A stretch of 64,000 bases of DNA from Acidobacteriota bacterium (GTDB lineage: Bacteria > Acidobacteriota > Terriglobia > Terriglobales > Acidobacteriaceae), in NCBI GenBank assembly GCA_021792135.1, contig JAJYVF010000005.1, forward strand, positions 62,001 through 126,000, given 5' to 3'. The notes below the pieces were generated by a model, which had not been told where the DNA came from, did no database searches, and saw nothing but the letters and a program-made list of their open reading frames with translations. Made by a program: the position numbers and the translations under genes. Below are positions 48,639 through 53,074 of this stretch, in pieces (position 1 is the first letter of the stretch; every line of letters begins with the position of its first letter).

Positions 48639-48667
48639 TTGACAGTCATCGCATCAGGTTCTACGCT
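48639..48667 (+). promoter_or_regulatory. Promoter of the Cys leader / peroxiredoxin unit
   Basis: TTGACA (48639-48644), 17-base spacer, TACGCT (48662-48667), then seven bases to the ATG of the Cys-rich leader. The predicted start falls on or next to that ATG, so the leader ORF would be leaderless. Spacing is identical to the promoter at 49745. Confidence 0.65.
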
Positions 48668-48674
48668 GGGATCG

Positions 48675-48746
48675 ATGGCTGTAAACTCCCCAGCCCGCAT
48701 GTGTCAGTGCTGCTGCTGTCGCTGCACGCTGCGGGTGCCTGTCTGA
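48675..48746 (+). CDS. Cysteine-rich leader peptide (23 aa)
   Basis: ATG GCT start, TGA at 48744-48746. Residues 10-17 read CQCCCCRC: six of eight codons are Cys. There is no ribosome site; translation probably starts on a leaderless mRNA. A terminator follows 36 bases after the stop and the peroxiredoxin gene starts 117 bases after it. The bases GCGGGTG (48731-48737), just after the Cys codons, can pair with CACCCGC (48787-48793) in the 5' arm of the terminator. If the ribosome stalls at the Cys codons this pairing is free and blocks the terminator; if it reaches the stop, the pairing is covered and the terminator forms. Confidence 0.75.
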   Translation: MAVNSPARMCQCCCCRCTLRVPV

Positions 48747-48782
48747 GAGAGCCGAACCGATACAGTTTCGAGATTCGATCAG

Positions 48783-48820
48783 AACCCACCCGCCGCCGAT
48801 GACCGGGTGGGTTTTGATTT
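48783..48820 (+). terminator. Intrinsic terminator (attenuator) before the peroxiredoxin gene
   Basis: 10-bp stem AACCCACCCG / CGGGTGGGTT with an 11-base loop (48783-48813), followed by TTGATTTG. It lies between the leader peptide and the structural gene, the position of an attenuator. Confidence 0.8.
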
Positions 48821-48863: not shown

Positions 48864-49532
48864 ATGTCACTCCGCATCAACGATATTGCCCCGGATTTCA
48901 CCGCAGAAACGACCCAGGGAGCGATTCACTTCCACGAGTGGATCGGCAACAATTGGGCTGTGCTCTTCTCCCATCCCAAAGACTTCACCCCAGTCTGCAC
49001 GACGGAGCTGGGGGCTGTCGCCAGCCTCGAACAGCAATTTGCGCAGCGCGGCGCCCAAGTCATCGGCCTCAGCGTCGATCCCGTGACCAGCCACAGCAAG
49101 TGGGCCACCGACATTAAGGATGTTGGCGGTTACGAGGTCAATTACCCCATCATCGGCGATCCCGAGCTGAAAATTGCCAGGCTCTACGACATGCTGCCCG
49201 CCGACGCCGGAGACACCTGTGAAGGCCGTACCCCCGCGCTGAACGCCCCTGTCCGCACCGTGTTCATCATCGGACCGGACAAGCGCATCAAGCTGACGCT
49301 GGCCTATCCGATGAGCACCGGCCGCAATTTCGACGAGATCCTCCGCGTTCTCGACTCCATCCAGCTCACCGCCCAGCACCCCGTCTCAACACCCGCAAAC
49401 TGGAAGCCGGGCGAGGACATCATCATTGCCGGTTCGGTGTCCAATGAAGAGGCGGCAAAGCGCTTCCCCGGGTTTAAGACAGTGAAGCCCTACCTGCGCA
49501 CCGCTGCGCAGCCGCAGTCGTCCGTGGAGTAA
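48864..49532 (+). CDS. 1-Cys peroxiredoxin (Prx6 type)
   Basis: 222 aa from ATG 48864 with GAAGGAG upstream. The peroxidatic Cys is in HPKDFTPVCTTELG (C47 region); the Prx6-type C-terminal half (NAPVRTVFIIGPDKRIKLTLAYPMSTGRNFDEILRVLDSIQL) is present, and no resolving Cys in the 2-Cys position is seen. It reduces H2O2 and organic peroxides in the cytoplasm. It is expressed behind a Cys-codon leader and an attenuator, which links it to cysteine supply; two hairpins lie after its stop. Confidence 0.92.
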   Translation: MSLRINDIAPDFTAETTQGAIHFHEWIGNNWAVLFSHPKDFTPVCTTELGAVASLEQQFAQRGAQVIGLSVDPVTSHSKWATDIKDVGGYEVNYPIIGDPELKIARLYDMLPADAGDTCEGRTPALNAPVRTVFIIGPDKRIKLTLAYPMSTGRNFDEILRVLDSIQLTAQHPVSTPANWKPGEDIIIAGSVSNEEAAKRFPGFKTVKPYLRTAAQPQSSVE

Positions 49533-49608: not shown

Positions 49609-49684
49609 GCACCGGTGGCGAAGTGGCTAACGCGCTGGTCTGCAAAACCAGTATTCGCCGGTTCAATCCCGGCCCGGTGCTCCA
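49609..49684 (+). tRNA. tRNA-Cys (GCA)
   Basis: 76 bases with encoded CCA. Acceptor GCACCGG / CCGGTGC, D arm GCG/CGC, anticodon stem CTGGT / ACCAG with loop CTGCAAA (anticodon GCA), T arm GCCGG-TTCAATC-CCGGC. The discriminator base is U73, the main identity base of tRNA-Cys. It sits between two Cys-leader units. Confidence 0.97.
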
Positions 49685-49744: not shown

Positions 49745-49773
49745 TTGACCCCGCGCGATTCTGCCGGTAGTAT
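49745..49773 (+). promoter_or_regulatory. Promoter of the Cys leader / sulfite reductase operon
   Basis: TTGACC (49745-49750), 17-base spacer, TAGTAT (49768-49773), then seven bases to the leader ATG at 49781. TATAAG at 49771 is a possible alternative -10. Geometry equals that of the first unit (36 bases from -35 to ATG). Confidence 0.65.
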
Positions 49774-49780
49774 AAGCGCA

Positions 49781-49849
49781 ATGGCTATGTGCCCCACTCC
49801 GGCTGTCTGCTGCGCTTGTTGTTGCGCGCTGCGCCGGACTTGTGGGTGA
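49781..49849 (+). CDS. Cysteine-rich leader peptide (22 aa)
   Basis: ATG GCT start, TGA at 49847-49849. Seven Cys: MAMC at the start, CCACCC at residues 10-15, and one near the end (TCG). No ribosome site and probable leaderless start. A terminator hairpin lies 29 bases after the stop, and the sulfite reductase gene starts 87 bases after the stop. TGTGG (49841-49845) at the end of the ORF can pair with CCACA (49884-49888) in the terminator arm, a weaker version of the pairing seen in the first unit. Confidence 0.78.
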   Translation: MAMCPTPAVCCACCCALRRTCG

Positions 49850-49878
49850 GCCTCCCGACTTAGCCTTTCCCCATCAGC

Positions 49879-49911
49879 CCGCGCCACAGCCTCCCTGCTG
49901 GCGCGGTTTTT
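49879..49911 (+). terminator. Intrinsic terminator (attenuator) before the sulfite reductase gene
   Basis: 8-bp stem CCGCGCCA / TGGCGCGG with a 12-base loop, followed by TTTTTC. It ends 25 bases upstream of the sir start and 30 bases after the leader stop codon. Confidence 0.85.
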
Positions 49912-49936
49912 CTTTGCACTCAAAACCGGAGGAGCC

Positions 49937-51640
49937 ATGGCCGACTCGATCGCCGTGAAAGAGACCAAAGCCCAGAAGGCCGAGCGCCTGAAGCGCGAGA
50001 AGAATCCCTGGGACGCTTTTGAAGAGATCCGCGCCTTTGCCCGCAAAGGGCGCTCTTCCGTCCCCGAAGAGTGGAGCACGTACTTCCGCTGGTGGGGCAT
50101 CTACACCCAGGGCGATGGCCTCGGCGTCACCGGAGGCCGCGGCGGCGAAGGCAAATCCACCGACTTCTTCATGATGCGGGTGGCCATCGCCAACGGCATT
50201 CTCACCGCCGCTCAGGCCCGCGTCCTCGCCGAAATCGCGCAGCGGCACGGCCAGAATCTCGCTGACATCACGGTGCGCCAGAACATCCAGTACCACTGGC
50301 TCACCGTCGAGTCGCTGCCCGAGATCATGGAATCTCTTGACGCTGTCGGCCTCTCCCCCAAAGGAGCGTGCGGCGATGTGGTCCGCAATGTCACCGGCTG
50401 CCCGCTCGCCGGCATTGCCCACGACGAGATCATCGACGCCTCGCCCCTCGCTGTCGAGATCGCCAACGAGCTCCGCGGCAACAACGATTTCTACAACCTC
50501 CCGCGGAAGTTCAAGATCTGCGTCAGCGGCTGCCCGGCGTGGTGCTCCTATCCGGAGATCAACGATATCGCCTTTACCGCTGTCCGTCGCGGCGAGGAGG
50601 TCGGCTATTCCGTCCGCGTCGGCGGCGGCCTCTCCAACGAACCGCACATCGCCGTGCGCCTCAATGCCTTCGTTCGTCCCGATCAGGCGCCCGCCGTGGC
50701 CCGCGCCATCGCGCAGATCTTCCGCGACACGCCGGTTCTGCGCGAGAGCCGCGACCGCGCCCGCATGAAATACCTCTTCATGAAGGAGGGCTGGACTGCG
50801 GAGCGGTTCCTCGACGAGATTCACAGCCGCATCGGCTATCAGCTCGATCCTGCCGTCCTCGAGGCGGTGCCCGACGATATCGTCCGCGATCACGCCGGCA
50901 TTCACCGGCAGAAGCAGCCTGGGCTCAGCTACGTGGGCGCCAGCGTCCTGCGCGGACGGCTCAGCGGGGATCAGCTTGCCGCAGTCGCCGATCTCGCCGA
51001 GGCCTTCAGCCATGACGGGCGTGGCGATCTCCGCCTTACCGTCATGCAGAACCTCATCTTCCTCAACATCCCGACGGAGCGCACCGGCGAACTGGCGGCG
51101 GAACTGGAGCTGATCGGGCTCCACGTCGACGGCACGCCCTTCTGGCGCGGCGGCATCGCCTGCACCGGCACCGAGTTCTGCAAGCTGGCCATCACCGAAA
51201 CCAAGGGCTTCCTGCGCTGGCTGGTCGAGGAGATGGAAGAGCGCCTGCCGCAGTTCGACCAGCAGCTTCGCCTGCATGTCACTGGCTGCCCTAACAGCTG
51301 CGGCCAGCACTGGATCGCCGATATTGGCCTCGAGGGCAAGAAGATCAAGCACGAGGGCAAGCTGACCGACGCTTATTACTTCTGCGTTGGCGGTTCGGTC
51401 GGCCGGTACGCCGGCACCGCTCGTCCGGTCGGCTTCCGCACACCGGCTCGTCTTGTCCCGGAGGCCATTGAGCGGCTGCTGCTCCGGTACATGGCCGAGC
51501 GCGAGGCCGAAGAAAGCCTGCGTGCCTGGTTTGCGCGCAGGAGCGATGCTGAGCTGCGGGCTGTGCTCGCAGGCGAAGAGCTTGCTCCCGTCGAGCGCGA
51601 TCTGCCCGGCGGCCGCGTGCCGGCTGAGGTGGCCGGTTAA
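49937..51640 (+). CDS. sir: Siroheme-[4Fe-4S] sulfite/nitrite reductase (ferredoxin-type)
   Basis: 567 aa from ATG 49937 with GGAGGAG upstream. Two homologous halves are seen, each with an N-terminal NIR_SIR ferredoxin-like segment and a siroheme-binding region. The cluster ligands are C409 and C415 (ACTGTEFC) and C451 and C455 (TGCPNSC); TVRQNIQYH carries Arg residues of the siroheme pocket. Six-electron reduction of sulfite to sulfide (or nitrite to ammonia). The Cys-codon attenuator upstream and siroheme synthase genes downstream favour the sulfite role; sequence alone does not exclude nitrite. Confidence 0.92.
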   Translation: MADSIAVKETKAQKAERLKREKNPWDAFEEIRAFARKGRSSVPEEWSTYFRWWGIYTQGDGLGVTGGRGGEGKSTDFFMMRVAIANGILTAAQARVLAEIAQRHGQNLADITVRQNIQYHWLTVESLPEIMESLDAVGLSPKGACGDVVRNVTGCPLAGIAHDEIIDASPLAVEIANELRGNNDFYNLPRKFKICVSGCPAWCSYPEINDIAFTAVRRGEEVGYSVRVGGGLSNEPHIAVRLNAFVRPDQAPAVARAIAQIFRDTPVLRESRDRARMKYLFMKEGWTAERFLDEIHSRIGYQLDPAVLEAVPDDIVRDHAGIHRQKQPGLSYVGASVLRGRLSGDQLAAVADLAEAFSHDGRGDLRLTVMQNLIFLNIPTERTGELAAELELIGLHVDGTPFWRGGIACTGTEFCKLAITETKGFLRWLVEEMEERLPQFDQQLRLHVTGCPNSCGQHWIADIGLEGKKIKHEGKLTDAYYFCVGGSVGRYAGTARPVGFRTPARLVPEAIERLLLRYMAEREAEESLRAWFARRSDAELRAVLAGEELAPVERDLPGGRVPAEVAG

Positions 51641-51650
51641 GGAGATTCGT

Positions 51651-52289
51651 GTGACCCTGCTACCCATTTTTCTTCGGCTGGACCGGCGTCCCTGCCTCGT
51701 GGTCGGCGCCGGCACCGTCGCCCTAAGCAAGATCGAGAGCCTGCGGAGCGCGGCGGCGAACATCACCGTGGTCGCTCCGGAGGCGGTCCCGCAGATCCGC
51801 GAAATGGCGGATCGGGGATTGCTCCGCTGGCGTCAGCGTGTCTTTGGAGCGTCTGATCTGGACGGCGCCTTTCTGGTGATCGCCGCCACCAACAGCAGCC
51901 AGACAAACCAGGCCGTGTATCAGGAAGCCCAGCGGCGAAACGTGCTCTGTAACGCCGTGGACGATCCGCCCAACTGCGACTTCTATTTTGGATCGGTCGT
52001 AGCCCGCGGGGACCTGCAGATCGCTATCTCCACGGCCGGCGAGAGTCCTGCGTTCGCCCAGCGGCTGCGCCGGGAAATCGACGAGCAGCTTCCAGGCGAC
52101 CTTGGGCCCTGGCTTTCGGAGATCGGTGCCCTGCGCCGCGAGGTCCGCGCCGCAACATCTCCGGGCTCAGCTCGTAACCTGCTGCTCCATGAACTGGCCC
52201 AGCGCCAGCTCTGCAGCTCCCCTTCGTGCCCGGCACGGCAGTTTGCCCGGGAGCGGATTCAGTCCCTGAAGAACGAGGTGCCCGCATGA
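51651..52289 (+). CDS. Precorrin-2 dehydrogenase / sirohydrochlorin ferrochelatase (siroheme synthase N-domain)
   Basis: 212 aa from GTG 51651 with AAGGAG upstream. The Met8/CysG N-terminal NAD domain is seen: PIFLRLDRRPCLVVGAGTVALSKIESL, the VVAPE strand, DLDGAFLVIAATN, and DDPPNCDFYFGSVVARGDLQIAISTAGESPAFAQRLRREI. It oxidises precorrin-2 and inserts Fe2+ to make siroheme for the reductase before it. Overlaps the next gene by four bases. Confidence 0.92.
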   Translation: MTLLPIFLRLDRRPCLVVGAGTVALSKIESLRSAAANITVVAPEAVPQIREMADRGLLRWRQRVFGASDLDGAFLVIAATNSSQTNQAVYQEAQRRNVLCNAVDDPPNCDFYFGSVVARGDLQIAISTAGESPAFAQRLRREIDEQLPGDLGPWLSEIGALRREVRAATSPGSARNLLLHELAQRQLCSSPSCPARQFARERIQSLKNEVPA

Positions 52290-53074
52290 CTGCTGCGGCG
52301 CATCCCGGAACTGTGTCCCTGGTGGGCGCCGGTCCCGGCGATCCGGAACTGCTGACGCTGAAGGCTGCTCGCCTGCTCGCCTCCGCGGACATCGTGCTCC
52401 ACGACGATCTGGTTCCGGCGGCTGTGCTGGCCCATGCCGAACGCGCTTTAATCATCAACGTCGGCAAGCGCTGTGGGCGAAAGAACCTGACCCAGGAACA
52501 GATCGAGGCGATGATGGTGGAGCACGCCCGCCGCGGCCTTTCCGTGGTTCGCCTCAAATCCGGCGATCCGCTCGTCTTCGGCCGCGCCGGCGAGGAAATG
52601 GATGCCCTCCGCGCGGCCGGGATTCCCTTCGAGGTCGTTCCCGGCATTACTGCGGCCTTTGCCGCAGCGGCCGCGATCCAGCGTCCGCTCACCGACCGCC
52701 GCAGCGCCTCGAGCATCAGCTTCTCGTCCGGCCATCATGCGCCGGGATCGGCGCTGCAGCCAGCGTCGCTCTCCGGAGCCACGCGTGTGGTCTACATGCC
52801 GGGACACGACCTGCATGCCATCGCAGCGCAACTGCGCAGCGATGGACTCTCTCCGGGGCTGCCCTGCGTCATCGTCTCCCGGGCTGCCCAGCCCGACCAG
52901 CAGATCCTGGGCACGACCCTGACTGATCTGGACCGGGTTGCGCCCCTGCCGGCGCCCTCCATCCTGCTGGTCGGCGAGACGCTGGCGCAAAGGCAGCCAG
53001 AGGCGGTCGATAGTCTGGCAGAATGCGGGCCGGCGGCCACCGCGGCAGCGCCGCCGCTGACGCTCGGTCTGTAG
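52286..53074 (+). CDS. cobA: Uroporphyrinogen-III C-methyltransferase
   Basis: 262 aa from ATG 52286, overlapping the previous stop. SUMT motifs: VSLVGAGPGDPELLTLKA at the N-terminus, VLHDDLVP, VVRLKSGDPLVFGRAGEE, VVPGITAAFAAAA and the family's PLTDRRSASSISFSSGH segment. It makes precorrin-2 from uroporphyrinogen III using SAM. Together with the preceding gene it replaces the fused CysG, so the operon makes both the sulfite reductase and its cofactor. Confidence 0.93.
   Translation: MTAAAHPGTVSLVGAGPGDPELLTLKAARLLASADIVLHDDLVPAAVLAHAERALIINVGKRCGRKNLTQEQIEAMMVEHARRGLSVVRLKSGDPLVFGRAGEEMDALRAAGIPFEVVPGITAAFAAAAAIQRPLTDRRSASSISFSSGHHAPGSALQPASLSGATRVVYMPGHDLHAIAAQLRSDGLSPGLPCVIVSRAAQPDQQILGTTLTDLDRVAPLPAPSILLVGETLAQRQPEAVDSLAECGPAATAAAPPLTLGL

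Follow-up and report, generated by a model that had tools for sequence, protein, structure and literature searches.

How is transcription into the sulfite reductase (sir) operon of an acidobacterium controlled, and what is the role of the short cysteine-rich open reading frame (ORF) and the hairpin that lie in front of its first gene? We addressed this question in a window of 64,000 nucleotides, meaning the whole stretch of DNA that was analysed, which belongs to a genome of 5.1 Mb; among named organisms, Acidobacteriaceae and Acidobacterium MAGs carry the sir genes most closely related to its own. A literature search returned no description of such a cysteine leader in Acidobacteriota, and the survey of Naville and Gautheret (2010; PMC2965389) contains almost no predicted Acidobacteria attenuators with an assigned function.

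Results

The sir locus and its leader

The features of the locus, all on the forward strand, are as follows.

49609-49684 (+): tRNA-Cys(GCA) gene, after the peroxiredoxin unit and before the sir leader
49745-49773 (+): sigma-70-type promoter, TTGACC-17-TAGTAT, with a -10 element ending 7 nt before the leader ATG
49781-49849 (+): leader ORF, MAMCPTPAVCCACCCALRRTCG, from ATG 49781 to TGA 49849, 22 codons with 7 Cys
49879-49911 (+): intrinsic terminator, hairpin 49879-49906 and TTTTT 49907-49911
49928-49934 (+): Shine-Dalgarno sequence GGAGGAG of sir
49937-51640 (+): sir, a siroheme/4Fe-4S sulfite/nitrite reductase
about 51660-52289 (+): dehydrogenase/ferrochelatase of the CysG N-terminal type, siroheme synthesis, 3' of sir
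52226-53074 (+): uroporphyrinogen-III methyltransferase, a siroheme gene 3' of sir that completes the downstream block 51660-53074

The Cys codons of the leader are codons 4, 10, 11, 13, 14, 15 and 21. A gap of 29 bases separates the end of the ORF from a hairpin of 8 bp, followed by a bulge and a 3-bp extension, and 25 bases lie between the T tract and the sir ATG at 49937. The original prediction had described a 22-codon ORF with seven Cys codons, a 29-base spacing to an 8-bp hairpin with TTTTT, and a sir start 25 bases further on, all of which were borne out by the sequence and, for the hairpin, by the fold. An ORF with at least seven Cys codons is uncommon by chance in the leader stretch, being found in 15 of 2000 dinucleotide shuffles. 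The plain fold of the window leader was only mildly more stable than its shuffles (z -1.7) and was kept out of the evidence. At the curated threshold, Rfam matched nothing but tRNA in the whole window, with no riboswitch or leader family.

Both siroheme/4Fe-4S reductase domains are present in the sir protein, and among solved structures the M. tuberculosis NirA chain 1zj8 is the nearest to it. This enzyme is a sulfite reductase in which a bond joins Tyr69 and Cys161, and both residues aligned to Tyr69 and Cys161 are conserved in the window sir. Because 1zj8 is the best solved relative and both residues of the Cys-Tyr bond are conserved, we take the window sir to be a probable sulfite reductase as well. 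In NCBIfam the protein scored under every curated cut-off, with nitrite reductases/NirA ranked at the top.

Conservation among relatives

The leader was compared across 118 sir loci, comprising the window, 79 related loci from the contig collection and 38 further loci of the same family. Automated scanning detected both a Cys-rich ORF and a terminator ahead of sir in 96 of the 118, and at least seven further loci were clear by eye, giving at least 103. A terminator with a T tract was present at nearly every locus examined. In four related loci that have no such leader (L022, L149, L151 and L161), the upstream gene ends in a CysH-type C-terminus, as judged by eye. Among more distant acidobacterial loci, one (G322) has a Cys-rich leader and a terminator, but its leaderless spacing is not clear; the other distant sir loci examined have no Cys-rich leader.

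The layout spans many genera while the residues other than Cys change. The 96 leaders contain on average 4.9 Cys in 23.5 codons, the number and spacing of Cys vary freely, and the remaining peptide is unconserved. Apart from Cys, leaders of one clade have in common those residues that the pairing segments encode, and little else is shared, as CACCCALRRTCG, CCRCCMPLRAHR, CCMCMCPMRLRRSYV and CCCCANVSSGARGLLT illustrate. The ratio of TGT to TGC among Cys codons is 316:156 in the leaders versus 89:745 in the sir genes.

The same comparison bears on the tRNA-Cys gene at 49609-49684, which lies just upstream in the same direction, so that the terminator might simply end the tRNA-Cys transcript and the ORF be fortuitous. 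The 600 nt upstream of the related sir loci from the contig collection contained no tRNA, and relatives of this kind keep both the ORF and the terminator; the leader ORF also has its own promoter. We therefore rejected an origin of the terminator in the tRNA-Cys transcript as extremely unlikely. A second tRNA-Cys is encoded in the same genome, beside a tRNA-Gly (G000:C55, locus L194).

Promoter position and predicted leaderless start

In most relatives the Cys ORF is preceded by a TTGACx-17-TAnnnT promoter that ends 6-7 nt 5' of its start codon. The best promoter of each locus was picked blind to start codons, and an in-frame start was then sought 5-8 nt further on. The Cys ORF had an in-frame ATG or GTG at this distance in 74 of 96 loci, compared with 0 of 192 in the out-of-frame control, and a Shine-Dalgarno-like motif precedes just 9 of the 96 leaders. 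Since the -10 element of the window promoter ends 7 nt before the ATG, the window transcript is predicted to be leaderless, and the leader mRNA of most relatives is likewise predicted to begin without a 5' untranslated region.

Competing helices

Three segments upstream of and within the terminator can pair in alternative ways.

49792-49803 (+): arm 1, CCCCACTCCGGC, pairing with arm 2, from the fold and the genus shuffle test
49828-49846 (+): arm 2, GCTGCGCCGGACTTGTGGG, at the end of the leader ORF after the Cys codons, the antiterminator strand
49870-49890 (+): arm 3, CCCATCAGCCCGCGCCACAGC, the partner of arm 2, which holds the terminator 5' arm

A segment of arm 2, GCTGCGCCGG, resembles the terminator 3' arm, GCTGGCGCGG. 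When a 16-sequence clade was aligned with MAFFT, the sequences around the terminator were displaced by a few bases, and for this reason we used swap tests that are free of register. The duplex of arm 2 with arm 3 reached -20.4 kcal/mol in native combinations versus -17.2 kcal/mol with the arms swapped between the 96 loci (z -10.8). Swaps within clades went in the same direction, with p 0.016 in the genus of the window and p from below 0.001 to 0.08 in other clades. When arm 2 was shuffled, the mean z for this pairing was -1.3, and a pre-Cys control had no excess. Support was weak in one Granulicella-like clade (z -0.3 against shuffles).

In the window genus the core of the 2:3 helix is CUUGUGGG:CCCAUAAG. 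The window helix has a single mismatch, T49841 opposite C49875, and several relatives have a perfect helix. Covariation within the genus is limited, with most pairs invariant, and one locus (L122) carries a double change from C-G to U-A in the core. Other clades have different sequences with equivalent pairing, such as GAGUGAAU:AUUCAC, AUCCGA:UCGGAU and CUCUGGC:GCCAGAG.

Arm 1 and arm 2 form an anti-antiterminator hairpin that encloses Cys codons 10-15. The pairing of pre-Cys with post-Cys sequence had a mean z of -2.5 against dinucleotide shuffles in the genus, and the overall swap test gave z -9.5; the excess was missing in the CCRCC..RAHR clade (z 0.0).

For the antiterminator, 49828-49846 with 49870-49890 is the better-supported candidate by these comparisons, and it replaces the two pairings offered originally, neither of which is the conserved one: TGTGG:CCACA (49841-49845 with 49884-49888) is absent in relatives, and GCGCG:CGCGC (49824-49828 with 49880-49884) is kept only in part among them.

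Modelling of ribosome position

We masked the RNA under a ribosome placed either at the first Cys pair (stalled) or at the stop codon, and computed how likely the terminator 5' arm was to be unpaired just before the synthesis of arm 4. This probability was 0.36 for the stalled ribosome, 0.65 for the ribosome that had reached the stop codon and 0.47 when the intervening sequence was shuffled, and the 5' arm was unpaired less often in the stalled state than at the stop codon in 94 of 96 loci. For the whole RNA at equilibrium the effect was small, with a mean terminator probability of 0.82 stalled versus 0.95 at the stop codon. In the window at equilibrium, a stalled ribosome gave a terminator probability of 0.42-0.80 at codons 10-11 and about 0.9 at codons 13-15. 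Because the terminator is often favoured at equilibrium even with a stalled ribosome, the predicted switch must be largely kinetic and act during transcription, as is also the case for known attenuators.

The untranslated window RNA forms the terminator at equilibrium (0.95). Before arm 4 is made, its terminator 5' arm is mostly paired (0.22 unpaired), so it is solely by equilibrium folding that the terminator appears as the untranslated default.

Sister units

48639-48815 (+): peroxiredoxin unit, promoter TTGACA-17-TACGCT, leader MAVNSPARMCQCCCCRCTLRVPV at 48675-48746, terminator 48785-48811 followed by TTTT
about 1140-2319 of L207 (G000:C58:13456-14640), outside the window: cysD unit, a predicted leaderless leader MSFAPTPAVCCACCCVMPGLWGTKL and a terminator before cysD

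The first of these units is followed by a 1-Cys peroxiredoxin gene whose coding sequence ends at 49532, and it is, as we infer, the 'unit one' from which the sir mechanism was originally suspected to differ. It does not appear to differ, as both leaders share the promoter spacing and the pairing of the post-Cys arm with the terminator 5' arm. The same leader architecture precedes the peroxiredoxin gene in every one of 11 genus relatives, in which sir and the peroxiredoxin gene occupy separate contigs. In a scan of about 1 Mb of flanking sequence, this leader, within the window, was the sole other convincing unit.

The cysD unit was found by a pattern search of the whole genome. Its gene was identified as CysD by NCBIfam, above the cut-off, and the cysD orthologues of two relatives are also preceded by such a leader. 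A plain poly-Cys pattern search of the genome gave 60 matches versus 41 in the reversed control and was uninformative alone. The sir, peroxiredoxin and cysD leaders have a common pairing logic and promoters whose position predicts a leaderless start, and by this shared architecture the three form a small predicted cysteine-attenuation regulon.

Two further observations were made. A more distant type of cysD, about 59% identical, is preceded at three loci (L225, L226 and L227) by short ORFs with Cys-rich tails such as FCCCGCR*, in a different layout and with a weak T tract only. In the genome of the window, outside the window itself, a leaderless poly-His leader (MQVRAHRRHHHHHHVTSVPANFRIPG) and a hairpin precede a hisI-like gene (L213; G000:C77:61090). 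Because this poly-His leader occurs in the same genome, these bacteria may make general use of leaderless starts in their attenuators.

The targets of the sister units also bear on what the peptide might sense. Cys-rich leader peptides responding to metals are known, and with one unit placed before a peroxiredoxin, an oxidative-stress gene, the Cys residues could be thought to sense metals such as copper or zinc, or redox state, instead of Cys-tRNA supply. Against this stand the free variation of Cys number and spacing in an otherwise unconserved peptide, the enrichment of TGT, which is at the codon level, and the targets sir, siroheme synthesis and cysD, which belong to sulfate assimilation. 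We therefore regard metal or redox sensing as very unlikely.

Discussion

At sir we found a short ORF rich in codons for one amino acid, an intrinsic terminator, an antiterminator that excludes it and has support from relatives, and a competing upstream hairpin. The sir leader very probably attenuates transcription according to cysteine supply through the position of the ribosome, on a leader peptide whose mRNA is predicted to be leaderless. The conserved poly-Cys codons, the terminator, the competing helices and the paralogous leaders give strong comparative support to the original proposal that cysteine attenuates the sulfite reductase-siroheme operon. To that proposal our analysis adds the predicted leaderless start, the upstream competing arm, the neighbouring tRNA-Cys gene and the cysD unit.

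Sequence and computation show the ORF, the promoter spacing, the terminator, the conservation and the excess of both helices, and we have proposed a plausible model of the process, in which we infer the transcription start, translation, stalling and response to cysteine. RNA polymerase would start at the AUG or about one base before it, and ribosomes would bind directly at the 5' end. With abundant Cys-tRNA, translation would proceed to the stop codon, and the ribosome there would cover arm 2 at the end of the ORF, leaving arm 3 free, and the 3:4 terminator would halt RNA synthesis ahead of sir. With Cys-tRNA in short supply, the ribosome would stall at codons 10-13 and cover arm 1, exposing arm 2, which would capture arm 3 ahead of the synthesis of arm 4; the terminator would then be blocked, and sir and the siroheme genes would be transcribed. 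With no translation, the 1:2 hairpin would form, with the terminator as the default in equilibrium folds.

By its architecture the sir leader can be placed in a known kind, ribosome-mediated transcription attenuation. As in trp/his-type attenuators, including trpL, competition among 1:2, 2:3 and 3:4 helices would be driven by ribosome position, and the trpL attenuator RNA of Sinorhizobium meliloti also starts at its ATG (PMC7298713). The sir leader differs in that it would sense cysteine and in that the leader ORF itself, as far as its stop codon, contains arm 2. Cysteine leaders have been predicted in Actinobacteria, where conserved terminator hairpins were not found (Seliverstov et al., 2005; PMC1262725). 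The uORFC-8-2 motif before cysS in Rhodobacterales, described as a prediction in the relevant passage of Brewer et al. (2021; PMC8632094), has Cys codons within a stem followed by an intrinsic terminator and is likewise predicted to act by ribosome-mediated transcription attenuation for cysteine. It differs in its two tandem Cys codons, its target cysS and its alphaproteobacterial hosts, and that passage reports no leaderless start. The sir leader falls outside this motif, since its target is sir and not cysS and its host belongs to Acidobacteriota and not Rhodobacterales.

The closest experimentally studied relatives are the leaderless polycysteine short ORFs of mycobacteria (Canestrari et al., 2020, Mol Microbiol 114:93; as presented in passages of PMC13236596, PMC9031893 and PMC9094748). 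According to these passages they resemble the sir leader, itself predicted to be leaderless, in being leaderless short ORFs, in their runs of Cys codons, in their position upstream of sulfur or cysteine genes and in their response to cysteine. They are described there as translation attenuators (PMC13236596), whereas the sir locus, in the phylum Acidobacteriota, has an intrinsic terminator and an antiterminator. By analogy, the sir leader might work by translation attenuation or by Rho-dependent coupling, as proposed for the mycobacterial ORFs, with the hairpin incidental, and the sir Shine-Dalgarno sequence does lie about 20 nt past the terminator. However, a T-tract terminator stands at nearly every locus, the pairing of arm 2 with the terminator 5' arm is specific, and GGAGGAG at 49928-49934 is outside the arm helices. 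We consider this explanation unlikely and favour transcription attenuation.

For the regulon as a whole, we lean towards the view that one leaderless polycysteine design spread to cysD, sir and peroxiredoxin in Acidobacteriota, independently of mycobacteria, and that it couples leaderless initiation to intrinsic termination. In mycobacteria a leaderless run of Cys codons acts through another output step, and the recurrence of this way of sensing points to convergent evolution. The peroxiredoxin unit suggests that peroxiredoxin is managed within cysteine supply. With its predicted leaderless design, wide conservation and three-unit regulon, the sir leader represents a predicted means by which a large group of soil bacteria would sense cysteine to control sulfate assimilation.
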